Shown in pieces: positions 1 to 49,677 of a DNA stretch of 64,000 nt. Position numbers and translations under genes: made by a program. Source of the DNA: Paraglaciecola sp. T6c (lineage in GTDB: Bacteria > Pseudomonadota > Gammaproteobacteria > Enterobacterales > Alteromonadaceae). Each line of letters starts with the position of its first letter. The first letter of the stretch is position 1. The DNA lies in NCBI RefSeq assembly GCF_000014225.1, contig NC_008228.1, forward strand, positions 2,294,001-2,358,000, in the 5' to 3' direction. A model generated the notes under the pieces. It was not told where the DNA came from. It saw only the letters and a list, made by a program, of their open reading frames with translations, and did no database searches.

Positions 1-1722
1 GTCATCAAACTCGATCGTGTCACTGATAGGGTCTTTCGCCAACGGGCTGTTTGGGTCTAGCGTTACCGTCGGTGCTAGGTTTTCTTTTGAGTCATCCACC
101 ATGGCGTTCACCTTGTCCATATCTACTCGTTGCATTAATGCTTTGAATTTATTGATTTCATGGCCAGTTAGTACACTTTGGGCGCTGCTCCAGCTTAAAT
201 CATCGTTCAAGAAGGCTTCGGCTTGCTCGGCTAATTTGGGCACAACGGGTTTTAAATACACCATTAACAGGCGGAACAAGTTTATACCCAATGAACATAC
301 ATCGTGAGTGAAGGCTTGTTTACTTTCATCTTTGATGGTGACCCAAGGGGCGTTGGCATCAATGAACTGATTAGCTTTGTCCGCTAGTGCCATAATTTCG
401 CGAATGGCTTTGTGATATTGGCGCTCTTCAAATGCTTGGGCGATGCTCGCTTGTGCATGTTGAAATTCAGCTACTAACGCAGGCTCAAGCACGTTGTCTG
501 ACAGCTTGCCGTCGAAACGCTTGGTGATAAAGCTGGCACAACGACTGGCGATGTTAACGACTTTGCCTACTAAGTCTGAATTAACTTTCTGTGCGAAATC
601 TTCAAAGTTAAGGTCGATATCTGTCACGTTCGCGCCCAGTTTAGAGGCGAAGTAATAACGCAGATACTCGGGGTTTAAATGTTCTAAATAAGTCCGGCCC
701 TTAATAAAAGTACCTTTTGACTTAGACATTTTGGCACCGTTAACGGTGACAAAACCGTGCACGTTAACGCCCGTAGGCTTTCTGAAACCGGCGCCTTCAA
801 GCATGGCTGGCCAGAATAGACAGTGAAAATAGGTAATGTCTTTACCGATAAAATGGTATAGCTCAGCGTCAGAGTCAGCGCCCCAGTATTCATCGAAGTT
901 AATGCCGCTGCGATCACACAAGTTTTTAAAGCTCGCCATGTACCCGACGGGTGCATCAACCCATACATAAAAGAATTTGTTGGGTGCACCGGGAATTTCA
1001 AACCCGAAGTAAGGTGCGTCGCGACTGATATCCCACTGTTGTAGGCCTTTTTCAAACCATTCTTCAAGCTTGTTGCTGATTTCGCTTTGCAAGGCATCGC
1101 TTTTCAGCCAGTTTTGCAGCATGTCTGAAAATTGCGGTAAGTCGAAGAAGAAATGCTCTGAGTCTTTTAAAATCGGCGTCGCGCCTGAAACCACTGAGCG
1201 TGGGTTCTTCATTTCTGTGGGGTCGTAAGTCGCACCGCAGTTATCACAGCTATCGCCGTTTTGATCTTCAGCACCACAGCTAGGGCAAGTGCCTTTTACA
1301 AAGCGATCCGGCAAAAACATGTTCTTTTCAGGGTCAAACAACTGGCTGATAGTGCGCTTTGAAATATATCCCGCATCGTTTAAGCGGTTGTAAATCAGTT
1401 CAGACAGCTCTTTGTTTTCGTCACTGTGGGTAACGTGGTAGTTGTCATATTCTACGAAGAAGTCGAGCAAATCTTGATGATGCTCTTCACGGGTACGCGC
1501 CACCATTTCCTCTGGCGTAATACCTAGCTCTTGGGCTTTGAGCATAACGGGCGTACCATGTGCATCGTCGGCACATACACTGTATATTTCGTGGCCACAC
1601 ATTCGTTGAAAACGCGTCCAGATATCCGTTTGGATATGCTCTAAAAGGTGACCCAAGTGAATGGAGCCATTTGCATAGGGAAGGGCGCTGGTAACAAGAA
1701 TTTTACGTGGTTGTGACGACAT
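1..1722 (-). CDS. metG: Methionyl-tRNA synthetase (C-terminus beyond window edge)
   Basis: Charges tRNA-Met with methionine in the cytoplasm. The minus-strand reading opens with [20 protein letters not shown] at the ATG complementary to 1720-1722. The class I HIGH-type signature HLGH lies near residue 24, a zinc knuckle with CPSC and CDNC pairs near residues 143-161, and the KMSKS loop (AKMSKSKG) near residue 328. About 574 codons are visible. The family in enterobacteria is near 677 residues, so the missing part should be the rest of the anticodon-binding domain and the C-terminal dimerisation/tRNA-binding domain. The gene is divergent from mrp, with about 118 bp between the two starts, as is common in gammaproteobacteria. 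No frameshift was seen. Confidence 0.97.
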
Positions 1723-1840
1723 GTTTATTTCGGTTTCTTAGTTTAATTAAAAAGGCCGCAAATGGTATCGAAAATAAGCCGCCATTGCATTAGCTAATAG
1801 CTACCTAGGGCCAAAATCATCGTTATTAAGTAGGAGTGTC

Positions 1841-2905
1841 ATGTTATTTAGCCGGTCAACACCAGAGCAAAAACGTCAGTCATTGGTTTCAAAGCAACTC
1901 GCGGCGCAATTCGAACTCACTGACAAGCACGTCGGTACATGGGTGACGGTCTCCGGTGAAGATGTTCTCATCACTTTACCTTTTGCTGCCGCAGCCGTTC
2001 ATGATGTGCTAGTAGCGCGTATTAAAAAAGTAGCGGACGAGCAAAAGCTACCTATACAGAACGTAGTCATCGAAACAGACATTCACGCATCGCCCACGAA
2101 AGTAGCTAAAGTCCCTAACATTAAAAACATCATTGCCGTTGCTTCAGGTAAAGGCGGGGTGGGTAAGTCGACCACCAGTGTGAACATCGCCTATGCATTG
2201 ATGGCACAAGGGGCAAAAGTGGGGTTATTAGATGCTGACATTTATGGCCCTTCAATCCCAATCATGTTGGGTAATACCGACTCAACGCCTGCCTCTCGAG
2301 ATGATAAAACCATAATACCCTTTGCGGCCCACGGCTTGGTTGCAAGCTCTATTGGTTATTTTGTGCCAGCTGAGAATGCGACAGTGTGGCGAGGGCCGAT
2401 GGCCAGTAAAGCCCTTGAACAATTATTGCGTGAAACCGACTGGCCAGAGCTAGATTACTTAATTGTTGATATGCCGCCGGGCACGGGGGACATTCAATTA
2501 ACGCTCGCTCAACAAATGCCAGTCAGTGCTGCTGTGATCGTGACCACCCCACAAGATTTAGCGGTAGCAGATGCCAGAAAAGGCATTGCGATGTTTAATA
2601 AGGTCGATGTGCCGGTGCTGGGCCTCATTGAAAACATGAGCTTGTACATTTGCCCCAAGTGCGGTCATCAAGAGCATATCTTTGCTCAAGACGGCGGAGT
2701 GGAATTGGCCAAGCGTAATAAGGTGCCATTACTTGGCCAATTACCATTAAACATTAAAATTCGTCAACATACCGATGAAGGTACGCCTTTATTGGTGGCA
2801 GAGCCAAACGACCCCCTAAGCCACACCTACCTAAAATGTGCAGCAGCTGTTTCAAAACAGCTTTATATGAATGGTTTGATGGACTTGCGCATACAAAATA
2901 TTTAA
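1841..2905 (+). CDS. mrp: Mrp/ApbC-type Fe-S cluster carrier P-loop ATPase
   Basis: Mrp/ApbC proteins bind and transfer Fe-S clusters in the cytoplasm using ATP. This 354-residue protein has an N-terminal MIP18/FeS-assembly-like region (residues 1-90), then the deviant Walker A motif ASGKGGVGKSTT near residue 107, a Walker B-like DMPPGTGD near 210, and the cluster-ligating CPKC pair near 271. Length and domain order fit the family. The start is supported by AGGAG 4 bases before the ATG. It is divergent from metG. A GC-rich inverted repeat follows the gene, and dcd comes 105 bp later. Confidence 0.95.
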   Translation: MLFSRSTPEQKRQSLVSKQLAAQFELTDKHVGTWVTVSGEDVLITLPFAAAAVHDVLVARIKKVADEQKLPIQNVVIETDIHASPTKVAKVPNIKNIIAVASGKGGVGKSTTSVNIAYALMAQGAKVGLLDADIYGPSIPIMLGNTDSTPASRDDKTIIPFAAHGLVASSIGYFVPAENATVWRGPMASKALEQLLRETDWPELDYLIVDMPPGTGDIQLTLAQQMPVSAAVIVTTPQDLAVADARKGIAMFNKVDVPVLGLIENMSLYICPKCGHQEHIFAQDGGVELAKRNKVPLLGQLPLNIKIRQHTDEGTPLLVAEPNDPLSHTYLKCAAAVSKQLYMNGLMDLRIQNI

Positions 2906-2918
2906 AAACGTTGAACAT

Positions 2919-2956
2919 AGCCTCTTAGCTACGCATAATTGCGCGGCTAAGCGGCT
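2919..2956 (+). terminator. Inverted repeat after mrp
   Basis: AGCCtCTTAGC (2919-2929) pairs with GCTAAGcGGCT (2946-2956) between mrp and dcd. The tail after the stem is only mildly T-rich, so this may be a weak terminator or an mRNA-stabilising hairpin. Confidence 0.4.
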
Positions 2957-3010
2957 GTCATCTTTTATGATTCGCCAAATACCCAAAACCTATTTACTGA
3001 GTTAAACATT

Positions 3011-3610
3011 ATGCGTTTGTGCGACAAAGACATTCTGACCCATCTTCAAGAAGGCAAGATATCGATTACCCCTGAGCCTGATTATGCTGAGATCAGTGGC
3101 GTAACCGTCGACATTCGATTAGGCAACAAATTTCGTGTGTTCACTGAGCACCAAGCGCCATACATTGATTTGAGCGGCCCTAAGGCGCAGGTTCAAGAAG
3201 CACTAAACACTGTGATGAGTGACGAAATCAGCGTTGGGCAGGACAAGTCATTCTATTTACACCCAGGTGAGTTAGCGCTCGCAGTGACCCTTGAGTCAGT
3301 GACTTTGCCCGGCAACATTGTTGGTTGGTTAGATGGTCGCTCGTCACTGGCGCGGTTAGGGCTGATGGTGCATGTTACTGCGCATCGCATTGATCCCGGG
3401 TGGTCAGGCAACATAGTGCTAGAGTTTTTCAACAGCGGTAAATTGCCACTTGCGTTAAAGCCAGGCATGAAAATAGGTGCGCTGAGCTTTGAAGTGATGT
3501 CAGATTTTGCAGAAAAGCCTTATAACGCGCGTGTTGATGCCAAATACAAAAACCAAGAAGGCGCCATTGCCAGCCGCATTAGCGGCGATGACAAAACAAG
3601 CACTCAGTAA
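3011..3610 (+). CDS. dcd: dCTP deaminase
   Basis: Deaminates dCTP to dUTP, supplying the main route to dTMP in many gammaproteobacteria. The 199-residue product contains the family signature [20 protein letters not shown] near residues 110-130, which includes the catalytic Glu/Arg/Ser neighbourhood and nucleotide-binding loop, followed by [13 protein letters not shown]. coli Dcd is 193 residues, so this looks full length. The ATG at 3011 is preceded by a weak AT-rich leader (ACTGAGTTAAACATT). The mrp-dcd neighbourhood is typical for marine gammaproteobacteria. Confidence 0.96.
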
Positions 3611-3707
3611 AGGCTTGGTTATTTAACATTGCATGTGCCTATTAAATTGCACGCGCCTATTACAGTGGTTGGGAATGACACGCCAACCGTTTTGCTTCCA
3701 TTTTATG

Positions 3708-4742
3708 CTACTGCTGTTCACTTAAAGCCCGCACCGCACCGGGGCTAACACCAAGTACCCGCTTGAACGCTTTTGAAAATGACGACTCATTTTCGTAGCC
3801 ACTAGCAAGCGCCGCATGCAAGGTCGTCACGTTTTCATCGGCTAACATCCTGTAGGCTAGGCCTAAACGCCACTGCGTAACATATTCCATCGGGGATTGG
3901 TGCAGCACAGACTTGAATAATTCGTTAAAACCCGCTCGCGACATAAAGCACCGCTGGGCGAGCATTTCCACGGTCCATTTTTTGTCAGGCTCGCTGTGAA
4001 TAGCTGCCATAGCGGCTCCCAGTTTTGGGTGAGCCGTGGCCGCAAGCATGCCATTGTCCGCTGGCAAATGTTCCCGAAAAATGATGGCTAGAATCGCCTC
4101 GGCGATACGGCCCATAATCAGTGCAGATCCTTTATTAGGCTGCTTTGATTCATCTAGCAGGGCATCAAGTAAATAGTTTAACCCCGACGCACTGGTGCTG
4201 ACTGTTTGGTGTTTTATGATGATAACGCTGGGTAAATGCTTTGTTACACTAGCGACAAGCGGATGGTGATGGCTGAAATAACCACAGACTAACCCGGTAG
4301 CACTGGGATGGATGCCACTTGCATAGTTCTGAGAAGCCGCGGTATTGACCACTGCCGACGATCCTAAATCGCCACTGATGACGTGCTCGCTATCGCGGGG
4401 GAACAACACGACATCGCCCTGTACCAATTCGATAACGGTGTTTTGCTTTTGGTCGCATTCGCTGTGTTTATCACCTTCATGTTCACTCTCACGTTTAACG
4501 CTAGGCAAGGTCAAAAAACACGTGCCGTGGCTAACAACATGAAAGTTCATGTAATGTGTGCCCGAAGTATTGATGGCCCAACTGCCACAGTATTGCCCGT
4601 TGTGGAAGACGTTTGCAGAGACTTTAAAGGTCGCGAATAATTGATTTAATACATCCATAGACGTTGTGACATAACCTCTGGTTTTATAGACATAGTGGCA
4701 ATACTCACCACTGTTTACACTATTCCTCGTTGACTGCTTCAA
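3708..4742 (-). CDS. AraC-family transcriptional regulator
   Basis: Cytoplasmic transcription factor. The N-terminal half (to about residue 200) resembles the cupin-type AraC ligand-binding domain (GSWAINTSG, then the VVLFPRDSEHVISGD segment). The C-terminal 100 residues are an AraC double helix-turn-helix (WTVEMLAQRCFMSRAGFNELF and the closing FSKAFKRVLGVSPGAVR). The longest reading starts at 4742, only 30 bp from the divergent YHS gene. Met29 (MDVLNQLF, 4658) begins exactly where the domain normally begins and leaves about 114 bp of shared promoter, so it is the likelier start. The ligand is unknown. The YHS gene is the obvious candidate target. Confidence 0.85.
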   Translation of the reverse strand: MKQSTRNSVNSGEYCHYVYKTRGYVTTSMDVLNQLFATFKVSANVFHNGQYCGSWAINTSGTHYMNFHVVSHGTCFLTLPSVKRESEHEGDKHSECDQKQNTVIELVQGDVVLFPRDSEHVISGDLGSSAVVNTAASQNYASGIHPSATGLVCGYFSHHHPLVASVTKHLPSVIIIKHQTVSTSASGLNYLLDALLDESKQPNKGSALIMGRIAEAILAIIFREHLPADNGMLAATAHPKLGAAMAAIHSEPDKKWTVEMLAQRCFMSRAGFNELFKSVLHQSPMEYVTQWRLGLAYRMLADENVTTLHAALASGYENESSFSKAFKRVLGVSPGAVRALSEQQ

Positions 4743-4772
4743 TTTTTGAACATCTAAACCGAGGACATAAAA

Positions 4773-5240
4773 ATGAAAAAACTATTTACCCTTAAATCAC
4801 TCTTTACTGCTGTTGCCATTACGGTATCAAGCTTCAGTTTCGCCGGCGTTGATACCCAAACCGATAGCAACGACGTTATTTTAGCCGGTCATGACGCCGT
4901 TGCTTACTTTACGCAAAACAAACCTGTGCTAGGTAAAGCGGAATATACTGCTGTGCATAATGATGCCATTTATCGTTTTAGCAGTGCTGCGAACCGAGAT
5001 GCATTTAATGGCAACCCAGATAAATATGCTCCTGCATATGGCGGTTTCTGTGCCTTTGGTGCTACCTTCGGTAAAAAATTCGACATCGACGGCAAAGCTT
5101 TTGAAATCGTTGATGGCACCTTGTATGTAAACAAAAACCCTGACGTGTACAAAGCGTGGAAAGAAGACATTCCTAAGCATTTGGTTGAAGCCAACGAACA
5201 ATGGCCAAGCATTGAGTTCACGCCGAGTAACGAGCTTTAA
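4773..5240 (+). CDS. Secreted YHS-domain protein
   Basis: 155 residues with an N-terminal signal peptide (MKKLFTLKSLFTAVAITVSS, cleaved near FA-GVD) and a YHS-type domain. The segment DVILAGHDAVAYFTQNKPV plus YGGFCAFGATFGKKFDIDG matches the periplasmic YHS family found next to regulators and metal or redox genes. YHS domains are small metal-associated modules, and the exact role of this secreted subgroup is not known. A purine-rich GAGGAC lies 8-13 bases before the ATG. It is divergent from the AraC gene and followed by a hairpin at 5370-5388. Confidence 0.85.
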   Translation: MKKLFTLKSLFTAVAITVSSFSFAGVDTQTDSNDVILAGHDAVAYFTQNKPVLGKAEYTAVHNDAIYRFSSAANRDAFNGNPDKYAPAYGGFCAFGATFGKKFDIDGKAFEIVDGTLYVNKNPDVYKAWKEDIPKHLVEANEQWPSIEFTPSNEL

Positions 5241-5795
5241 TCTTATCGACTAGTGTGGCGTTTCGCTTCATATGCCGTTATTAGCGGCGCACTCATTCGC
5301 TATGCCATGGTTCGTAAAGCATGGCTAGTGCGTCTTTACTGCCAATGAGTGAGCGCAGCACGAAAGCATAACCCCACACGTTGGGGTTTGTTCGTTACTT
5401 TGTCGGGTAGTGTCACATCAGACCGGAGCGACATTGGTATTCATTCACTTTGATTGACCTTAAAGCCGCACACTGTTGAGTGAATACAGTATCGTTGGAA
5501 ATCAGTTTTATAATGTGCGATACGAAGACGGGTAGGGTGCTAAGGCTTGGGCAAGTGATTAATCGAGTTGCACTGCGCGCAAAGTCAGGCGCCAGAGACG
5601 TTCGAGCTGGTAGATCGCCAGAATATGCACAATGGCAAGCGAAAGTGACGGATAAAAAGAGTGAAGAACGTGACAGAAAAACGGTCAAACCGATCGAATA
5701 AGCTGCAGTTTGAACAACAAATAAGCGAACGAACAAGGTAAAGCATATTTCTCATTGCAAAAACGCCAGATTTCCGTATTATGCGCGTCTTCGGT
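5241..5795. other. Gene-poor stretch with large imperfect inverted repeat
   Basis: 555 bases without a convincing gene. CACTCATT (5290-5297) pairs with AATGAGTG (5344-5351), and nested inside GCCATG (5304-5309) pairs with CATGGC (5320-5325), making one long cruciform-like structure. A second hairpin follows at 5370-5388. A 73-codon reading at 5480-5701 has no recognisable motif and was not called. Confidence 0.5.
5370..5388 (+). terminator. Hairpin downstream of YHS gene
   Basis: AACCCCA (5370-5376), loop CACGT, TGGGGTT (5382-5388), followed by TGTTCGTTACTTT. A compact stem with a partly T-rich tail on the plus strand, likely terminating the YHS transcript. Confidence 0.5.
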
Positions 5796-5872
5796 CGGTG
5801 TGTAGCGCAGCTTGGTAGCGCACTGTCATGGGGTGTCAGGGGTCGTAGGTTCAAATCCTATCACACCGACCA
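5796..5872 (+). tRNA. tRNA-Pro (anticodon GGG)
   Basis: 77 bases including an encoded CCA. The acceptor arms CGGTGTG (5796-5802) and CACACCG (5862-5868) pair. The D-arm is GCGC...GCGC, the anticodon loop ATGGGGT gives anticodon GGG, and the T-loop is GTTCAAATC. The layout closely follows E. coli proL, including the imperfect anticodon stem. It decodes CCC/CCU. Its 3' end is copied at 6050-6069, and an accessory region begins right after it. Confidence 0.96.
5853..5872. repeat. att-like direct repeat, left copy (tRNA 3' end)
   Basis: The last 20 bases of tRNA-Pro, AAATCCTATCACACCGACCA, recur at 6050-6069 with a single mismatch. Duplication of a tRNA 3' end is the usual mark of tyrosine-recombinase integration, but no integrase is present. 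Confidence 0.6.
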
Positions 5873-5975
5873 ATTCAACTGCCCTCAAATTCCTATACCA
5901 AGAATTCCTACTCTATCAAATATCTCTGAACCTATGAAATCAGCGCGAAGCGATCACAGTCGTGTTCACAAAGTT

Positions 5976-6030
5976 GTCGGGAACAATTTTGAACGTGCGC
6001 AGCACGGCCCGCAGGGCGACATATTTATAG
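5976..6030 (+). repeat. Degenerate REP-like element
   Basis: TCGGGAACAATTTTGAAC...CAGCACGGCCCGCAGGGCGA resembles the palindromic element described at 7231-7301 (TCGGGA, ATTT, CAGC, GGCCCGCAGGG in the same order), but it has lost the CAGCTTTAGCTG core. Assignment is tentative. Confidence 0.4.
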
Positions 6031-6393: not shown

Positions 6394-6632
6394 CACAATT
6401 ACATAGACACCCATCTTTAGAATCTAATAAAAAGACTCTTGCTCAGAGTGGGAAATGCCCCTAAAGAAGCGTTGAGGTACTTTTCATCTGAACGATCAGG
6501 GATTCTTACTGGCACAATTACATAGACACCCATCTTTAGAATCGTATAAAAACTCTATTGTTCAGAAGGGGGCAATACCACTCAACTAGCGTCAAGGTAC
6601 TTTTGATCTCAATGATCGAGAATTTTTACTGG
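6394..6632. repeat. 119-bp imperfect tandem duplication
   Basis: Unit 1 (6394-6512) and unit 2 (6513-6632) both begin CACAATTACATAGACACCCA and end near TTACTGG. The first 31 bases are identical and the rest carries scattered substitutions and small indels. Neither unit encodes a protein. Their function is unknown. Confidence 0.75.
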
Positions 6633-7230
6633 AATATTGCGCTTTTACGAAGAAAAAGCAGCGCAAGGTCAGTTTTTGTGCACGCGGCAACGCTACAAGA
6701 TATGCATGATTGTACGGTTCGAAATTGATTTAGGCGCGCCTTAACAACGCTTTCGCTTTGGTCATTCCTCGCAGCCGTTGATGATGGGTATGGCGCTTAA
6801 ACGCATTCATCATTTGCTCCGCGCCAGCTGCGTAGCAGAAGTGTTTTTCGAACTCAGTGGTTAAGGTTAACCACTGAGCAGCGTCTAATCCCAATCTTTG
6901 TAGAATAGGACTGTGAGTGTTATCAATATGATCGGCCTTATCACCTCGAATGCATCGGCCTGTTGTGTCTACCAATTCACAATAGCCTTTGAGTGAGTAA
7001 GCGATACCTTGAGGCATATTTTCACGATGATTTCCTACAAACGGCATTAAAGCACTCGGTTGCTCTCGTTTATTTTTAACCGCCTGAGCACGTTTTTTGA
7101 TACTGGTGTGCTTTGACGTTTCGGGTGTTTTTGCCATTTTTGCACGAATGGGATTCAAGTCCACATAGGCCATACACGCTAAGACCGCACTCTCATCTAA
7201 TAGGGCTTGTGATTTAAATCGTCCTTCCCA

Positions 7231-7301
7231 CTAATTTATCAGGAGTAAATTAGAACAGCTTTAGCTGGCCCGCAGGGAGAGCGCCAAGGATGGCGGCGAA
7301 T
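7231..7301 (+). repeat. REP-like palindromic element R1 inserted in RAYT copy 1
   Basis: 71 bases (CTAATTTATCAGGAGTAAAT at the left, core CAGCTTTAGCTGGCCCGCAG, right end GGATGGCGGCGAAT) separate the codons for GRF and WEGRFKSQALL, which are adjacent in intact RAYTs. The core CAGCTTTAGCTG is nearly palindromic. Related copies lie at 7570-7643, 10683-10758 and 10934-11005. Confidence 0.8.
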
Positions 7302-7569
7302 AAAAACGACCGGTGCAACCATCCTCTTTATTAGCTTCACGAGCAATATACTCATTCAAATCACGCATAAACCAGCTTATGTCATACAAACGTTACCGAT
7401 AGGTTTCAACGGTCTCATCAAAGGTGATTAGCTCGCCTTGGCTCAGCGTATCGCCATTCATAAATTTCTGAGTCAGCAAAGTGCCTCTGTGTAGCTTGTG
7501 ATAGCGCCTCAACACTTCATCGCTATCCCAATTATCAGCCAAGACTTTATCCACACAAAGCACCACCTG

Positions 7570-7643
7570 AGTCTACTTCAGGCATCCTGCCTTACGCCCT
7601 TCGGGCCAGCTAAAGCTGTTGTAAAATGTTCCCGACATTTTTA
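7570..7643 (-). repeat. REP-like palindromic element R2
   Basis: GGGCCAGCTAAAGCTGTTGT on the plus strand is the inverted form of the R1 core. It interrupts RAYT copy 1 between the AVMNN and VVLCVDK segments. The same insertion at the same codon is present in RAYT copy 2 (R3), so it predates the split of the two copies. Confidence 0.8.
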
Positions 7644-7873
7644 CTGATTATTCATGACCGCATAGTCACAAATACGGTAGCCGCGCTATCTATGGCGAAT
7701 ACCGTAGATAAAAACAATAAACGCTCTGCTACCGAGCCTCGGGGATGCGCGTAAGTTTTTTCAGAATATTCATCGACCCATAAAAATCAAGTGTATTTGA
7801 GCACCGCAAATCACTCAGTTTTAAGATGAGTATTATCACTAATTGTTAAATACATATGAAATTTTGTGCATTG

Positions 7874-7901
7874 TTGACAATTTATTGTTAATAAATATAT
7901 T
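7874..7901 (+). promoter_or_regulatory. Candidate sigma-70 promoter for GH86 gene
   Basis: TTGACA (7874-7879), 16-base spacer, TATATT (7896-7901). It matches the -35/-10 consensus well and would leave a leader of about 270 bases, which contains the palindrome at 8094-8118. Confidence 0.4.
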
Positions 7902-8093
7902 ATCGTTAGCGTGAAAAAAATTAACCTAAAGTTAACGGGTTAATGAATGGGTAATCTATCGCTAGTCTGTGGCCATTGGTAATAGCTTGTTCGAATTACT
8001 ATGAAAAAATAATGGCAACATGGATATTTTATTACGACACAACATTTAAGCCTTCTTACTCAGTGTTGATTTTTGTTGAGTACTAAACGCTAT

Positions 8094-8118
8094 ATTTTAC
8101 GTTGCTACAACGCAAAAT
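8094..8118. promoter_or_regulatory. Candidate operator upstream of GH86 gene
   Basis: ATTTTACGTTG, CTA, CAACGCAAAAT: an inverted repeat with 11-base arms and one mismatched pair, 58 bases before the GH86 ATG. Size and symmetry suit a dimeric repressor. No regulator gene is adjacent. Confidence 0.5.
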
Positions 8119-8175
8119 GATAAACGCGACATCTGGTAAGTTATTGAAATAAGAAATGGTAAGGTAAAATTTATA

Positions 8176-10242
8176 ATGATAAAAAAATACAATAATAAAT
8201 GGTCTCTACAAAAAGTCGCTGTAACGCTTTTGCTTACAACGACTTCCAACAGTTTTAACATTGTTCATGCAGCGGAAAATAAAGTTTCTGTTGATGTTAA
8301 TTTAGACACTAAACATCGTATAGGTAATATTGAGCGCTTTAACCGTGAAAAATTCATCTCATTGCATTCGGCCCCAACAGAAAATGAATGGGATCATGAT
8401 AACAAAGGCAACAACGCCAAATCAGATCTAATTGGTAGCTTTATTAATGGTTATGATGTGTATTTTGGCCGTGATACGGGATACATGAAAAATCAATTAT
8501 TTGCTCAAAAGCAAGATGGTAATCGTTTAGGCTTTATTGATGAATCTGTTTTAACTACGAAGGGCAATGCCGCAATTAACTCGTTTGAAAACAGTAACGC
8601 TACTCGGTTTGTTAACGCCAGACGCTTTAAAAATAGATCTAAAGATATGGTTGTTGGTGGGCAAGTACATCCTTATTATCCTGACGGCACTAATATTGGT
8701 AATAGTAATTGGGCATTCTCACAAAAAAACACTGACCAAGAGCCTATTGGTACCGCCACAGGCCATTACATGGGGCAGTTTCTACAAAAATATTTTGCGC
8801 AAACGAACACAGCTGCAGGTGCGCCTAAACCTGCTTATTTAGAAGTTGTAAATGAACCTTTGTATGATCTAAATATTGCACCTAAAGACGGACGAGATAA
8901 GGCACCTATAGCTGATATCTTCAAATACCATAAAAGTGTCGCGCAAGAAATTCGTAAAAGTAATAATCAAGCATTAAACAAAAATATTAAGGTTGCAGGC
9001 TATACCGTTGCCTTTCCTAACTATGATTGGGATAATTTTGAACGCTGGGAAAGTAATGACAAATTTTTCATTGATACGGCAGGTGCCGATATGGACGTAT
9101 TTTCTATTCATCTGTATGACTTTCCAACTCACCCTCGAGGAGAGGAATATCGACGAGGCAGTAATGTCGAAGCAACACTCGATATGCTAGAGCAATATTC
9201 AAATATTAAATTCGGTCGTACTAAACCATTATTAATTTCAGAATATGGTGCATCTGTACATGCTTTGCGAAACAAACCATGGTCACAGGTAAGAGATGCT
9301 GAAAAGTTACGCGGTTATAATGCACTATTAACCCATTTTCTAGAACGTCCTGACGTTATAGCTAAAGCAATTCCTTTTATTCCCGTGAAAGCTGAATGGG
9401 GTCGTCATGGCGACACCGGCTACCCTTATGAAAATAGATTAATGAGACAACAATTTGAAAAAGCAGGGCAAACAGGAACCGATTGGATCTACACTGACTT
9501 AGTAAAATTCTTCGAATTGTGGTCTGAGGTTAAAGGTATACATGTAGACAGTTGGGCATCTGATCTTGATATCATGGTCGATGCATATGTACAGAATAAT
9601 AAAGCACATATCATAATGACGAGTTTAGAGTTTCAAGATACTGATGTTGCATTAAAAGCACTTGGGATCGATGGAAATACGATCAAATCAGTCCAAGTAA
9701 AAACCTTGTCTTATGATAATAACAACCATGCAAAATTGGCTACTAAAACAATGTCATCGGTACCTAAAACCGTTTCTTTGCCGAAAGAAAGTACCCAAAT
9801 CATGACAATTACTTACCACAATAAAATTAACATTGATAAGGTGAACCAACAGAACAAATATTATGCCACTACCTATAAGCAGCCTATAAAAGCGAACGTG
9901 GATATGTATTTTAATATCAAAGATGTGGAGGTAGGAGCACAAGGCGAAGCCGTTTTACGTTTAGGTATTGGTCGAGAACACGGTAAATCGCTCACACCGA
10001 CAGTAAACGTGAATAACGTACCAGTTGAAGTGCCTACTGACTTCAGAGGGTATGACCAGAAACAAGGTAAAACTCGCAACGGACGCGCAAGTTTCTTTGG
10101 CGTCATTGAAATACCTGTGTCACATGATCTACTACAAGGCAGCAATTGGATACGTATCAACTTTGATGATGCCGGCGGATTTGTAACAAGCGCAGCTTTG
10201 CAGGTTGTTAACAGTAGTGACGAGATTACGCGATCACTTTAA
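8176..10242 (+). CDS. GH86-like secreted beta-agarase/beta-porphyranase
   Basis: Predicted extracellular endo-hydrolase of agar-type red-algal galactans. 688 residues. A signal peptide (to about residue 32, ending IVHAAE) precedes a GH86-like catalytic domain with the clan GH-A signatures EVVNEP (acid/base Glu near 227) and LISEYGAS (nucleophile Glu near 356). Also visible are VVGGQVHPYYPDGTNIGNSN and an aromatic-rich substrate cleft (WGRHGDTGYPYENRL). The last 150 residues look like beta-sandwich domains. Agarase versus porphyranase cannot be decided from sequence alone. The gene is markedly AT-richer than the flanking housekeeping genes and is bracketed by two RAYT pseudogene copies, pointing to horizontal gain. 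A weak AAGG lies about 14 bases before the ATG. Confidence 0.85.
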   Translation: MIKKYNNKWSLQKVAVTLLLTTTSNSFNIVHAAENKVSVDVNLDTKHRIGNIERFNREKFISLHSAPTENEWDHDNKGNNAKSDLIGSFINGYDVYFGRDTGYMKNQLFAQKQDGNRLGFIDESVLTTKGNAAINSFENSNATRFVNARRFKNRSKDMVVGGQVHPYYPDGTNIGNSNWAFSQKNTDQEPIGTATGHYMGQFLQKYFAQTNTAAGAPKPAYLEVVNEPLYDLNIAPKDGRDKAPIADIFKYHKSVAQEIRKSNNQALNKNIKVAGYTVAFPNYDWDNFERWESNDKFFIDTAGADMDVFSIHLYDFPTHPRGEEYRRGSNVEATLDMLEQYSNIKFGRTKPLLISEYGASVHALRNKPWSQVRDAEKLRGYNALLTHFLERPDVIAKAIPFIPVKAEWGRHGDTGYPYENRLMRQQFEKAGQTGTDWIYTDLVKFFELWSEVKGIHVDSWASDLDIMVDAYVQNNKAHIIMTSLEFQDTDVALKALGIDGNTIKSVQVKTLSYDNNNHAKLATKTMSSVPKTVSLPKESTQIMTITYHNKINIDKVNQQNKYYATTYKQPIKANVDMYFNIKDVEVGAQGEAVLRLGIGREHGKSLTPTVNVNNVPVEVPTDFRGYDQKQGKTRNGRASFFGVIEIPVSHDLLQGSNWIRINFDDAGGFVTSAALQVVNSSDEITRSL

Positions 10243-10530
10243 AAAATCAAAGGACGCGAACCTGACACAACACATTTGGTCTAGATTTATAGTTTGTTGC
10301 TCATTGAGCTAATGACTATGTCTAGACCGCTTCGAGTGGATTATAAAATGTGCTTTATCATGTAATGAATTGTGAAAGAGGGTGTGAAAGAGAGTGTGAA
10401 AATAGCTTTTGAGTGATAACGACGTTAAGCCTTTTCTATACTGCATAGAGTTGGCATCGTTTCGATTCAATATTGAAGCGGAGTCACATTTTTTAATCAA
10501 AAAACACATGGAAAAATATACACATACCCC
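10243..10530. other. Intergenic stretch after GH86 gene
   Basis: AT-rich sequence with a direct GTGTGAAAGAG duplication near 10380 (GGGTGTGAAAGAGAGTGTGAAA) and no recognisable gene or strong terminator. RAYT copy 2 homology starts at its right end. Confidence 0.4.
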
Positions 10531-10682
10531 ATGCACAATAATGAGTTCCCCATGGCTCAATGCTTTGCCTCTTATAAATTTTTGAGTCAACAAGGTATCC
10601 TTGCGTAATTTGTCATAACACTTCAACACTTCGTTAACGGCTCAGTTAACTGCCAACGCATTATCAACACAAAGTGCCACAA

Positions 10683-10758
10683 GAGTCTGCTTAAAGCATC
10701 CTGCCATACACCCTTAGGGCCAGCTAAAGCTGTTGTAAAATGCTCCTGACATTTTTAC
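10683..10758 (-). repeat. REP-like palindromic element R3
   Basis: GGGCCAGCTAAAGCTGTTGT core, same orientation and same insertion point within the transposase gene as R2, with point differences. Confidence 0.8.
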
Positions 10759-10933
10759 TGATTATTCATAACCGCACAGGCACAAATACGGTAGCCGCGC
10801 TATCGATGGTAAACACCGTTGATAAAAACAACATACGCTCTTCTACCCAACCACGGCGATGCTCGTGACTTTGACCAGAATATTTATTAATGCCGGATAA
10901 ATATGACTGGCGAACGCAGCGAGAAACACAATA

Positions 10934-11005
10934 ACAAATTTATCGGGAAAAATTTGAGCAGCTTTAGCTGGCTTCTAAGAAGTGAACGACATGGATGTCG
11001 TGAAT
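10934..11005 (+). repeat. REP-like palindromic element R4
   Basis: TTTATCGGGAAAAATTTGAG, then CAGCTTTAGCTGGCTTCTAA and an arm ending ACATGGATGTCGTGAAT. It interrupts RAYT copy 2 between the DTPY and CVSRCVR codons and has the same orientation as R1. Confidence 0.75.
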
Positions 11006-11170
11006 AAAATAGGGCGTGTCGATTAAACTAATTTGGCTTTTTCGAGGTTGAGGCATTATCCATCTACCTGACAAAAATGAGACGCAAATCTAGTCTAGTT
11101 TAGCCCTGAAAATTGACCATTTTTATCATGGGTGTCATTATAACGAGCTTGTATTTAAAAAAGGATTTTC

Positions 11171-12280
11171 ATGCTCATAAAATTACTAGGTCAGTTTCTT
11201 ATTCTCGTGTGTATTAGCCATTTTTGTTTTGCAGAACAAACAAGTTTTGTATCACAAAAAATTGATAAGCATATTGGGAAATATGTTGAGGAAGAAGCTT
11301 TTAAAGGGGTCGTATTAGTTGCTAAAGAAGGGAAGGTGATCTTTAAATCTGCATATGGAAATGCTGATGAAAATAATAGTATACCCAACACAGTGGATCA
11401 CAAGTTCTTGATAGGTTCATTAACAAAATCATTTACCGCTGTTACCGTGATGAAATTAGTTGATAAAGGTAAATTGAATTTAACCGCCCCGATATCTACC
11501 TACATACCGAATTTACGTAAAAATATTGGCCAAGACTTAACGTTACACCTGTTACTAAAGCATCAGTCAGGTCTTCCTCAGCATTTAGAAAGACTAGCGA
11601 GTTTTGAAGATAAAGATGTTTCTTCAGACGAGATATTGGCCATTATCAATACTGCGAGTTTGGCCTTTGTGCCTGGAACACAATATCAATATTCAAATTT
11701 AAATTATCACCTAGCCGCCATTGCAATAGAGAACGTGACGGGCAAGACGTATGCTCAAGTTCTTCAAGATGAGATTTTTTCTCCCTTGAAAATGGGCAGC
11801 TCAGGCGTTGAACGTCTGAATAATGTCCCTGTTAATAGAGCAAATGGTTACCGCAAAGGATTTTTGGGTACCAACAGGGCAGAAAACATTGTGTCTTATG
11901 CGTTGGGCTCTGGGGATATTTATTCTACAGTGGATGATTTACTCACTTGGGAACAATCACTATACAACAACCAACTTTTATCAGAAAAGAGCCAAAGGTT
12001 GTTGTTTGCCGGTGAGAACAATGATTTTGGAGATTATGGCTATGGATTTAGGGTGCAGCAATATCAAAGAGCCGCTGGCAAAAATAATGGTACCTTAACA
12101 AGACATGGCGGGTCGATGGATGGCTTTTTAACAAATTTACACCGTTATACAGATGACAAGCTGACTGTTATTATCTTAGCGAATATCCGTAACTTTCCTA
12201 TCAGGAATTTAACCTTCGAGATTAAGGAAATCGCAATGGGCCTTGCCGTTGGTGATCGTAACCGAGCGGAATTTGAGTGA
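11171..12280 (+). CDS. Serine hydrolase of the class C beta-lactamase/PBP4* family
   Basis: 369 residues. A signal peptide (MLIKLLGQFLILVCISHFCF, cleaved near AE) precedes a PF00144-type domain: nucleophile motif SLTK (Ser83, Lys86), YSN near residue 175, and HGG near 311 in RHGGSMDGF. Such proteins are periplasmic esterases, D-aminopeptidases or true beta-lactamases, and sequence alone does not separate them. The start is backed by AAAAAAGGATTTTC just upstream. Base composition is AT-rich like the GH86 gene, and the gene sits between RAYT copy 2 and the RAYT scrap at 13081, so it is probably part of the same accessory island. Confidence 0.85.
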   Translation: MLIKLLGQFLILVCISHFCFAEQTSFVSQKIDKHIGKYVEEEAFKGVVLVAKEGKVIFKSAYGNADENNSIPNTVDHKFLIGSLTKSFTAVTVMKLVDKGKLNLTAPISTYIPNLRKNIGQDLTLHLLLKHQSGLPQHLERLASFEDKDVSSDEILAIINTASLAFVPGTQYQYSNLNYHLAAIAIENVTGKTYAQVLQDEIFSPLKMGSSGVERLNNVPVNRANGYRKGFLGTNRAENIVSYALGSGDIYSTVDDLLTWEQSLYNNQLLSEKSQRLLFAGENNDFGDYGYGFRVQQYQRAAGKNNGTLTRHGGSMDGFLTNLHRYTDDKLTVIILANIRNFPIRNLTFEIKEIAMGLAVGDRNRAEFE

Positions 12281-12849
12281 ATTTTGATAACTAGCTTAAA
12301 AGGACATAACAGCAGTTTATTGGGCCTTCAGCACGCAAGTTAGCAGCTTTGGTTCGTGCAAGGATCCTGCTTTTAGAAAGAGAAGTGAGCACAGTCAATC
12401 GATGTTTTAATTAATTAGCCAGCGCAGCTGAATTGAGTCAGTGGTGCACCTCAACGTTATGTTCGCGCCGTGTATTAAAAGTGACTTCGATGCCCTCAAA
12501 ATGACGAGAAAACGCTCAATCATTGCGATTGGGAAGGGAGCAAACGGCAGACAGCGCCTGAGTTCATAAACTGGTAAATCAGTATGTCACGGCATGTCTC
12601 AAAAAGTATCTTCGTGACACGAGCTAGGGTATGGATGATATTGACGTTGTTTAAATAGTTTTCGCTTAGGTGTCGATATTATTAACGACAGCAATGGTAC
12701 TTTTTCATTGCTAGCTTTGTGCAAAGCGCACAAAGTCGCACTGTGAAAGCGTTACTCCCATCACGCTATATGATCTTATCCTAAGTTGATTCACCCAGTT
12801 TAGCGCTGAATTAAACGCACATTAGATTTCGCGCATAAGGAAATACTGA
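12281..12849. other. Intergenic stretch, no feature recognised
   Basis: 569 bases with a few short palindromes (for example TTTGTGCAAAGCGCACAAAG near 12717, whose TTTGTGC and GCACAAA arms pair) and no gene supported on either strand. Confidence 0.4.
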
Positions 12850-13035
12850 ATGAGAAAAGTCGTTATGTTTTCTAAGACTAAAAAATGGTGGCATGAAAGC
12901 CCTGATCTAGCGTTGTTAAATACCCAGATTAGTGAAATGGAAAAAGAGGGGTGGGTTATTGTGTCTGTTTCAGCAAACACAAATTTTTTAGGATTTATCT
13001 CTTCATACACAATTTTAATAGAGTCACCTGATTGA
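12850..13035 (+). CDS. Small hypothetical protein (DUF4177-like)
   Basis: 61 residues starting MRKVVMFSKTKKWWHESPDL. The pattern of a short beta strand, a helix with INEL-like spacing (LLNTQISEMEKEGWVIVSVS) and a final strand resembles small DUF4177-type proteins of unknown function. AAGGAA lies 7 bases before the ATG, which supports translation. A RAYT remnant follows almost directly. Family assignment is tentative. Confidence 0.5.
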   Translation: MRKVVMFSKTKKWWHESPDLALLNTQISEMEKEGWVIVSVSANTNFLGFISSYTILIESPD

Positions 13036-13080
13036 CCGCTCTCAACAAAGTATGAATAACGCATCCGCTTTAATTCATCT

Positions 13081-13155
13081 GCCTAGATGCTGATGATTGC
13101 TCCGGTGCTTGAACACATTCATCATTTGCTGTGTACCTGATGCGCATTTTTGTAG
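13081..13155 (-). pseudogene. RAYT C-terminal remnant, copy 3
   Basis: The minus strand reads ASGTQQMMNVFKHRSNHQHL, matching AAGAEQMMNAFKRHTHHQRL at the C-terminus of RAYT copy 1. Only about 25 codons survive. Confidence 0.65.
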
Positions 13156-47838: not shown

Positions 47839-49677
47839 ATGATAAGCCATGATGCAATAGTCAGCGATCCCGAGTCGTTAAATAACGGTATAAAGCCGTC
47901 GGTTTTGACCTTTTCTGGCAGCGACAGCGCAGGGCTAGCCGGCATGCAAATGGATGTAAAAGTCCAGCATGCATTAGCTGTACACTGCACCAGCGTGTTA
48001 ACAGCCGTGACAGCACAAAATAACCAACAGGTTTTTGCGGTTAACGCTGTCGATAGCGCTATGTTTCGCGCACAAATTGAGGCCGTATCGGTATTTCGTC
48101 CTAAGGCAATTAAAACAGGATTCGTTGCCAGCGAAGCACAAGCGCAACAAATCATTGCGGTTCGTCAGAGGCTAAAAATCCCGTTAATTTGTGACCCCGT
48201 TGGCGCCGCAACAAGTGGCGCTGAATTACACGGTAAGCGAAACACCGACAGCCATAGAAATATAAATAGGCTGCTACTTGCTCACTGTAGTTTGCTCACC
48301 CCTAACATTCCTGAGGCACAATCGCTTGTTGGGTTTGATATCGAAACTGCCAAGGATTTAAGAAGGGCTGCTAGAGCTTTGGTTGAAATTGGGGCTCAGG
48401 CGGTGCTAATCAAAGGCGGGCACTGGCAGTATGCTGATCATATGGGTCTAGATTTTTTTTACAGCCCAGAAGAGCAGTTTTGGCTGCAAAATGAACCGGT
48501 AGACACACCTCATACACGCGGCACCGGCTGCGCACTCGCCTCAGCAATAGCCAGCGCTATCGCCCTAGGTTACTGCTTAAAAGACGCTATTGTCATAGGG
48601 AAAATGGCCATTACCCAGGGCCTACACAATGCGAAAGGCCTACTCGCCAAAAGCGTGCGTTATCAAGACGTGCGTTATCAAGACACCCATGATAAACAAC
48701 GTTATCAAGACACCCATGATAAGCAGATTAAGGAACTCGCTTCTTTCGACACGCCTGAGTTAACAAGTGAGCAGAGTCTTCGACAGCAACAGAGCCAGCT
48801 GAATTATCAAGACACCCATGATAAGCAGATTAAGGAACTCGCTTCTTTCGACACGCCTGAGTTAACAAGTGAGCAGAGTCTCCGACAGCAACAGAGCCAG
48901 CTGAATTATCAAGACACCCATAACAAAGGTGGCGTCGAAATCCTTTGTTTTCCTGCCACTCAGCGCAGTTTACCCGGTCTGTATATTGAGTCCCTGATGG
49001 CGACGAGCGAACTTAGCTCTCTCGTATTACAGAAACAAGAGAACCCATTTCCAGGTATTGGCGACGAATCACTGGGCTTATATCCCGTTGTTGATCGCGC
49101 ACACTGGCTGGATACCTTGTTGCCACTTGGGGTGACTACCATTCAACTTAGAATAAAAGATTTAACTGGGCAGTCACTTGAAGAGGAAATCAAACGCGCG
49201 GTTGAAATAGCAACGCGCTTCCAGTGTCGTTTGTTTATCAATGATTATTGGCAACTGGCTATTAAGCACGGGGCCTACGGCGTGCACTTAGGCCAAGAAG
49301 ATTTAGTCGCTGCCGCTCAAAATGAGTCGAACCCAATTAAGCAATTGTTAGAAGCGGGAATGCGTTTAGGCATTAGTACCCATTGTCATTATGAAGTTGC
49401 ACGCGCCCATGCGCTGAAACCTTCTTATATTGCATATGGTCCGGTTTTCGCCACACAAAGCAAAGACATGCCGTGGGTCCCGCAAGGGTTAGCAGGGTTA
49501 GCGTACTGGCAAAAATTATTAGATTACCCTGTGGTTGCCATTGGGGGGATTGATCATGAGCGAGCAAACGCGATCCACGGGCTTGGTGTATCGGGTATTG
49601 CTATGATTAGCTATATTACTCAAGCCGAGAACCCTATTAAAGTGACAAAATCGTTATTGAGAGCGCTGGCATTATGA
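47839..49677 (+). CDS. thiDE: Fused ThiD-ThiE (HMP-P kinase / thiamin-phosphate synthase)
   Basis: 612 residues. Residues about 15-270 are a ThiD-type kinase (LTFSGSDSAGLAGMQMDVK, LLTPNIPEAQSL, VLIKGGHW, TRGTGCALASAIA). Residues about 413-605 are ThiE (LYPVVDRAHWLDTLLPLGVT, IQLRIKDL, INDYWQLAIKHGAYGVHLGQ, AYGPVFATQSK, VAIGGI). It phosphorylates HMP-P and joins it to thiazole phosphate. The two domains are separated by a low-complexity linker (about 274-362) made of repeated YQDTHDKQ units, including two near-identical 102-bp copies in frame. It starts 2 bp after thiG and overlaps thiF by 4 bp. Confidence 0.93.
   Translation: MISHDAIVSDPESLNNGIKPSVLTFSGSDSAGLAGMQMDVKVQHALAVHCTSVLTAVTAQNNQQVFAVNAVDSAMFRAQIEAVSVFRPKAIKTGFVASEAQAQQIIAVRQRLKIPLICDPVGAATSGAELHGKRNTDSHRNINRLLLAHCSLLTPNIPEAQSLVGFDIETAKDLRRAARALVEIGAQAVLIKGGHWQYADHMGLDFFYSPEEQFWLQNEPVDTPHTRGTGCALASAIASAIALGYCLKDAIVIGKMAITQGLHNAKGLLAKSVRYQDVRYQDTHDKQRYQDTHDKQIKELASFDTPELTSEQSLRQQQSQLNYQDTHDKQIKELASFDTPELTSEQSLRQQQSQLNYQDTHNKGGVEILCFPATQRSLPGLYIESLMATSELSSLVLQKQENPFPGIGDESLGLYPVVDRAHWLDTLLPLGVTTIQLRIKDLTGQSLEEEIKRAVEIATRFQCRLFINDYWQLAIKHGAYGVHLGQEDLVAAAQNESNPIKQLLEAGMRLGISTHCHYEVARAHALKPSYIAYGPVFATQSKDMPWVPQGLAGLAYWQKLLDYPVVAIGGIDHERANAIHGLGVSGIAMISYITQAENPIKVTKSLLRALAL
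48661..48925 (+). repeat. In-frame 102-bp tandem repeat in thiDE linker
   Basis: Copy 1 48703-48804, copy 2 48805-48906, then a partial third (48907-48925) that diverges. The two full copies differ by a single silent base (CTT/CTC). Shorter YQDV and YQDTHDKQ units precede them from 48661. Each copy is 34 codons, so the frame is kept. Confidence 0.95.

Follow-up and report, generated by a model that had tools for sequence, protein, structure and literature searches.

A GH86 gene enclosed by overlapping pieces of a RAYT-type transposase gene in Paraglaciecola sp. T6c

After Campbell-type integration by a single crossover, the inserted DNA is enclosed by direct, overlapping halves of the target. 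As regards the transposase genes considered here, the definition of a RAYT includes a gene flanked by inverted REPs (PMC2817692). Subclass 2.3 of these proteins is described as about 325 aa long and present in several, poorly conserved copies per Alteromonadales genome, and REP insertions are known inside tnpA-REP genes of subclass 2.4 (PMC6006769). Within the genus, Paraglaciecola hydrolytica is described as possessing two GH86 enzymes, for which transfer from other gammaproteobacteria has been suggested (PMC5943477). In the titles and opening parts of abstracts of open-licence literature, we found no description of a CAZyme gene within a RAYT gene.

The locus studied here lies in a window of 64,000 nucleotides of the Paraglaciecola sp. 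T6c chromosome (NC_008228.1, positions 2,294,001 to 2,358,000). It resembles a Campbell-type integration in its direct overlapping halves and in the single uninterrupted gene present in the closest relative; unlike such an integration, its overlap is now 78% identical, its right flank is not continuous with that of the relative, and a circle was not seen. The case of P. hydrolytica is similar in that a Paraglaciecola carries GH86 with a suggested horizontal transfer, but its genes are reported within a large polysaccharide utilization locus, whereas here a lone GH86 sits inside a RAYT remnant (PMC5943477).

Layout of the locus and the RAYT1 gene

An intact GH86 gene is flanked by two same-orientation pieces of one RAYT-type transposase gene (RAYT1), hereafter winL (left) and winR (right). 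The features of the locus are as follows (window coordinates).

5796..5872, plus strand: tRNA-Pro(GGG), detected by ARAGORN; left anchor of the site, kept in relatives
6394..6632, no strand: array of REP-like repeats, 3' end of the RAYT1 unit, with the GACACCCAT outer motif at 6406 and 6525
6733..7777, minus strand: winL, residues ~42-337, N-terminus missing (tblastn; 89% identical by blastn to two full paralogues)
7230..7303, plus strand: hairpin insert 1 in winL (comparison with other RAYT1 copies)
7427..7777, minus strand: overlap, left copy (repeat search, blastn; counterpart 10541-10887)
7573..7644, minus strand: hairpin insert 2 in winL, splitting the codons of the HuH motif
7778..7869, no strand: junction DNA, whose best match to other DNA in the compared loci has E 0.06
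7870..8175, plus strand: GH86 upstream region, which arrived with the gene (229/298 aligned bases identical to Pseudoalteromonas sp. FUC4)
8176..10242, plus strand: GH86 gene, 688 aa, beta-agarase/beta-porphyranase family (Pfam and PDB matches; 97% aa identity to FUC4)
10277..10531, plus strand: 5' fragment, degenerate, of RAYT2, another RAYT (intact at L141:4481-5452, beside the donor-type GH86)
10541..11142, minus strand: winR, N-terminus to ~residue 130, C-terminus missing (tblastn, blastn)
10541..10887, minus strand: overlap, right copy (repeat search, blastn)
10687..10758, minus strand: hairpin insert 2 in winR (copy comparison)
10933..11007, plus strand: hairpin insert 3 in winR (copy comparison)
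13085..13143, no strand: short remnant of a RAYT1 tail (59-bp match, 80%, to the RAYT1 of P. mesophila); synteny resumes here

The two pieces were delimited by tblastn with the intact 337-codon RAYT1 frame of Paraglaciecola mesophila KMM 241 (G008), the closest relative compared. On the minus strand, winL matched residues 82-337 at 7572-6733 and 42-74 at 7777-7679, and winR matched residues 5-74 at 11074-10793 and 82-130 at 10686-10540; that is, winL lacks approximately the first 40 residues and winR everything past about residue 130. The shared part was recovered by an ungapped repeat search as a direct repeat of 300 nt (7427-7726 and 10541-10840, 79% identical) and by whole-genome blastn as 7427-7773 versus 10541-10887 (78%, E 1.5e-77). 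In line with an earlier note on this DNA, the two pieces are thus complementary in truncation, share a diverged middle part and lie in the same orientation with GH86 between them. That note was silent on the palindromic inserts in both pieces and on the second-RAYT fragment. Full-length RAYT1 paralogues at 379 kb and 2,287 kb contain no gene and match both pieces in the expected order. Locus 4317k, considered as a second bracketed gene, was rejected, as the RAYT1 ends occur there in the wrong order.

The whole GH86/RAYT1 unit carries inverted GACACCCAT at both outer ends; winR includes the outer end of the RAYT1 unit, with ATGGGTGTC at 11128-11136, and an array matching the REP-like array at the left also precedes the RAYT in P. 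mesophila. To the right of the unit, 11171-13085 comprises a beta-lactamase-family gene (PF00144) and the DNA that follows it. The gene gave no result over the cut-off among the 25 of 47 NCBIfam matches listed. At the search sensitivity used, none of the 21 relatives in the genus had a DNA match to it, which indicates that this stretch is also variable.

As for the identity of RAYT1, its intact relatives are mostly 327 aa long among the protein matches listed, and some sources name them "REP element-mobilizing transposase RayT"; the named relatives among the 120 matches listed belong to Paraglaciecola or Alteromonadaceae. In the alignment rows of at least 300 aa (24 of the 30 rows), YVDLNP and WE were each present in 24/24 and NHxHVV in 20/24, so that RAYT1 carries both the HxH (HuH) and the Y---NP tyrosine motif of RAYT/TnpA-REP subclass 2.3; its 327 aa and many matches in the genome likewise agree with this subclass. 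It therefore resembles TnpA-Y1/RAYT subclass 2.3, as described, in length, the WE, YVDLNP and HxH motifs, multicopy occurrence and low conservation between copies (PMC6006769). It differs in its HuH motif, which is NHYH in the table of that paper and mostly NHTH here, and in that the copy at this locus is broken and houses a foreign CAZyme gene (PMC6006769).

Pfam returned no match for RAYT1, and a search of its own genome with the Y1_Tnp profile was empty, from which RAYT1 appears to lie beyond the detection range of that profile. NCBIfam NF047646 reached E 1.7e-8 and 34 bits, below its cut-off of 80, and a relative (P0339) carries PF01797 in precomputed annotation. Regarding the HUH endonuclease fold of the subclass, no sequence match was obtained in the PDB, and the AlphaFold2 model (mean pLDDT 43.8) was too poor for a structure search. 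By blastn, RAYT1 has 59 matches in this genome, among them the self-match and short hits to inserts or repeats alone. At the protein level, four RAYT1 clusters, each of 327 aa, are attributed to the genome.

RAYT1 occurs in two forms, insert-free and three-insert. In the latter, multi-hairpin palindromic elements of about 72 nt occupy three fixed sites in copies from this genome, P. mesophila and a further relative (G005), and two of the three sites in relative G016; the loci concerned are L111, L112, L117, L118 and L119. The site of insert 1, for instance, is occupied in the 379k, 2287k, G008:C21 and G005:C56 copies and empty in the insert-free ones. Between species, the inserts are 94-100% identical and their 40-bp flanks 76-93%; insert 2 of winR is 89-90% identical. 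In an 18-copy alignment, 8 of 15 pairs had changed on both sides, and the covariation score was reached by 0/500 shuffles. A search of 7200-7680 against Rfam was empty at E <= 1. The arrangement recalls subclass 2.4, in which palindromic elements within a RAYT gene are also described; the differences are that RAYT1 is, by motifs and length, of subclass 2.3 and that its elements are multi-hairpin, of about 72 nt, at three fixed sites (PMC6006769). Two three-insert copies of different species, L118 and L111 (the 379k copy), align over 1303 bp at 82% identity with zero gaps, which is unexpected in pseudogenes and may reflect conversion by intact copies.

Further copies of the hairpin element, with the core CAGCTTTAGCTG, occur in genomes of the genus (L123, L125, L126, L132, L133 and L140). 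In these, the first hairpin varies yet pairs, and the loop of the last hairpin is often GGAT.

Origin of GH86 and of the RAYT2 fragment

The GH86 frame contains BPA_C and Porphyrn_cat_1 domains, with PF18040 and PF18206 over the Pfam cut-offs, and matches PDB entries 8h97 (beta-agarase, E 3.7e-153) and 4aw7 (beta-porphyranase, E 2e-66). By sequence, its product is a member of the GH86 family of beta-agarases and beta-porphyranases. The gene has a GC content of 0.38 compared to 0.45 for the window. In a collection of species-level genomes, the single relative was that of Pseudoalteromonas sp. FUC4, 97% identical over all 688 residues, to which a protein search added Pseudoalteromonas sp. 20-92 (97%) and KAN5 (87%) and Colwellia sp. 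E2M01 (79%). Within the genus, 7 of 22 genomes, its own included, have a GH86 match, the best outside its own genome being 51% identical. In the genus of FUC4, 4/108 genomes match at E <= 1e-100 (97, 79, 48 and 48%), and in a sample of the order 2/394 match at E <= 1e-215, namely its own genome and one at 79%. Acquisition of GH86 by horizontal transfer from another genus is well supported by these comparisons. Searches of plasmid and phage collections gave no match to the cassette.

At the DNA level, similarity to FUC4 spans 7870-10291, and 1987 of the 2067 bases of the coding sequence (96%) are identical. The values for this pair (dS 0.138, dN 0.015, omega 0.11) indicate that GH86 is under purifying selection, and that either the transfer lies some time back or a relative of FUC4 was the actual donor.

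On its 3' side, GH86 runs into the degenerate start of RAYT2 (10277-10531). RAYT2 had no match at E <= 1e-10 in the genome of the window; in the genus, its best-scoring match was 46% identical over 298 residues and its most similar one 54% over 213. The fragment therefore probably travelled with GH86. In FUC4, GH86 is immediately preceded by an intact RAYT2 and followed downstream by some 20 bases of the same RAYT2 edge. In the ancestral donor, RAYT2 probably lay on either side of GH86. The junction near 10531-10541, between the RAYT2 fragment and winR, joins two different RAYT types.

In FUC4 (L141:3352-9405), the RAYT2-GH86 segment is itself enclosed, lying between two same-orientation copies of a peptidase-like gene, one reduced to a C-terminal fragment and the other full (903 bp, 94% identical). 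By analogy, this bracketing has the layout expected after entry by a single crossover; a duplication would give the same look. RAYT2 5' fragments are present at several junctions of this FUC4 locus. The association between GH86 and RAYT genes is not universal, as a Colwellia-type locus (G485, GH86 79%) had no RAYT1 or RAYT2 match in 18 kb. In another locus (G108, GH86 79%), RAYT1 fragments lie 3' of GH86; they are about equally distant from winR (70% identical over 92 bases) and from the P. mesophila RAYT (68% over 123). An origin of winR from a Pseudoalteromonas RAYT1 was rejected, since in 108 genomes, with five candidate places per genome scored, the best-scoring match was 76% over 122 bases and higher identities were shorter and mostly due to inserts.

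The site in relatives and the mosaic of the overlap

The left flank (1-6002) is syntenic with P. mesophila at 88% identity. At the same place, that species carries one intact, likewise oriented RAYT1 and lacks both GH86 and the beta-lactamase-family gene. Beyond this RAYT1, 1 kb of different DNA leads to a second, similarly oriented RAYT tail, past which synteny returns at about 13085 of the window. In G005, both flanks enclose a gene with weak AAA similarity and a RAYT tail, without a full RAYT1, and in G009, G010, G013 and G016 long matches were confined to the left flank; both flanks were found close together in 2/21 relatives, a count in which draft contigs may hide others. These differing contents indicate that the site near tRNA-Pro is variable, and the right outer flank of the GH86 unit is not matchable to an ancestral state.

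According to the earlier note, a single RAYT in a relative without GH86 would support its model, and P. mesophila has this. It also named two observations that would speak against its model, and neither was made: 0 of the 6 left-flank loci show the two halves already separate without GH86, and both halves belong to one RAYT subfamily. That GH86 lies within a gene represented in the closest relative by a single RAYT1 is well supported. The resident gene of P. mesophila is insert-free, whereas both halves here carry inserts, which indicates that the resident of this lineage was replaced, was converted or gained inserts.

We then considered substitutions private to each half, counted at sites invariant in nine reference copies (eight from this genome and the site copy of P. 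mesophila). L010, L020, L026 and L039, strongly diverged or partial, were left out of these counts, as were the copies of G005, G009 and G016 and G008:C21. In winL, private substitutions amounted to 7/593 in the outer part versus 5/25 in the inner one, the last ~40 bases (p 5e-5). In winR, they fell from 25/109 beside GH86 to 10/110 in the middle and 4/103 at the outer end (inner versus outer, p 4e-5). Change-point tests agreed, separating 5/587 from 11/41 in winL (reached by 0/2000 shuffles) and 24/84 from 18/238 in winR (1/2000). Both halves are thus unusual where a donor copy would be expected.

The change points themselves differ, that of winL lying near 7726 and that of winR at the column equivalent to about 7525. 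Between them both halves look ordinary, and in this zone, comprising insert 2 and C1, identical runs of 26, 22 and 24 bp are common to the two. Among the nine controls, the E379k copy was comparably patchy (0/2000) and the P. mesophila copy less so (12/2000). Given the non-coinciding change points and the patchy E379k, the mosaic alone is no proof of a single crossover. In addition, winR is divergent in more than one segment, D0 among them (62-78% to other full copies), and matches of at least 180 bases to its inner part are 69-77% identical. No donor RAYT1 or circle was found among the sequences searched.

Exchange between RAYT1 copies was apparent elsewhere in the genome. The copies L004 and L008 (1.67 and 4.97 Mb) share an identical tract of 551 bp though they differ at 84/1104 positions overall (expected number 1e-17), and winL shares 194 bp with the E2287k copy (4.5e-7); both expectations are rough and assume a uniform difference rate. 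The 551-bp tract clearly stems from a recent ectopic event, either gene conversion or duplication. Its copies lie at G000:C1:1669871-1670582 and 4969442-4969938, 3.3 Mb apart by linear coordinates. Moreover, the insert-bearing RAYT1 genes of P. mesophila and G005 are 92% and 89% identical, respectively, to an insert-free copy of their own species, compared to 83-85% and 76-78% to the insert-bearing copies of this genome, winR aside. As judged from these alignments, RAYT1 copies in this genome recombine, and the patterns are those of gene conversion.

Possible routes of entry into RAYT1

The most economical reading is that GH86 was brought in through RAYT1 homology, probably by ordinary recombination between transposase copies. 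Several explanations for how this came about were weighed, and the best of them, to which we assign a rough probability of 0.46, is a Campbell-like single crossover between the resident RAYT1 and a divergent RAYT1 fragment joined to the cassette. A Pseudoalteromonas-like donor would have supplied the GH86 cassette plus a piece of the neighbouring RAYT2, and this cassette would have become joined to a second, more divergent RAYT1 fragment. Homologous recombination with the resident RAYT1 near tRNA-Pro would then have involved a single exchange midway along RAYT1; its likeliest position is around 7600-7736, the part with the shared runs of 26, 22 and 24 bp. The product would be a half without the N-terminus, the cassette and a half without the C-terminus, the inner parts of the overlap being donor DNA. 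We infer the single crossover, the circular donor and the order of events alike; a circle delivering GH86 in one crossover is plausible.

The Campbell-type entry put forward in the earlier note thus gains from the single subfamily, the single-RAYT relative, the mosaic halves, the recombining copies and the foreign GH86, and loses from the right flank. At the site of P. mesophila, the target is single and uninterrupted, with a further RAYT tail 1 kb away; of the outer flanks, the left one is continuous with this empty site and the right one differs up to about 13085. Later changes could account for the latter mismatch. Because continuity of the right flank was tested and did not hold, we do not present the locus as a proven Campbell integration.

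A possible, though less probable, history is that two separate neighbouring RAYT1 copies of different age were present and that GH86 entered between or next to them by illegitimate recombination, each copy being cut at its own junction and the overlap merely reflecting the parts that survived. RAYT1 pieces are frequent in the genome (the 59 blastn matches, with self, insert-only and repeat-only matches counted in), P. mesophila and G005 have other DNA at the site, and P. mesophila has a complete RAYT1 with a second same-orientation RAYT tail 1 kb on; the joining of two RAYT types near 10531-10541 and the divergence of winR in more than one segment also fit. However, the common strand, the complementary truncation and the overlap would all become coincidence, and inner divergence with ordinary outer parts in both halves would not be predicted.

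An improbable alternative is that the resident RAYT1 was duplicated in tandem by unequal recombination, with the cassette inserted between the copies and the inner ends lost. Insert 2 at the same site in both halves, direct RAYT1 copies about 12 kb and 59 kb away, and the full RAYT1 plus RAYT tail in P. mesophila agree with it, but the halves differ by 22% in the overlap, whereas the full copies of this genome that were compared differ by 8-15%. Finally, mobilisation of the GH86 segment as single-stranded cargo, by RAYT1 in trans or by RAYT2, is very unlikely: GH86 does adjoin RAYT2 in FUC4, the whole unit is bounded by inverted GACACCCAT ends and four 327-aa RAYT1 protein clusters are attributed to the genome, but no exact GACACCCAT occurs inside the cassette (7778 to 10540) and the break in the gene shows an overlap in place of a clean insertion.

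Returning to the Campbell-like reading, a bolder extension, which we regard as rather doubtful, is that GH86 moves between marine genera on small circles that bear RAYT genes together with a host-gene fragment picked up by chance, settling by a single crossover in the gene which this fragment matches; the landing gene would be, with the same reserve, RAYT1 here and the peptidase-like gene in FUC4. If so, dead RAYT genes would be standing landing sites for seaweed-degrading genes, and the present unit, with intact RAYT1 ends as its borders, could be moved once more in trans. Should the idea of landing pads hold, RAYT remnants would help explain the scatter of single CAZyme genes among marine gammaproteobacteria. 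The locus is an instructive rather than revolutionary example of gene capture, and a readable case of a single carbohydrate-active gene changing genus, for which both junctions and the recombining repeat family are available together with the donor-type gene and a relative with the empty site.

Away from both RAYT1 pieces, the GACACCCAT end motif also occurs in the window as a direct array of four copies at 48682-48921.
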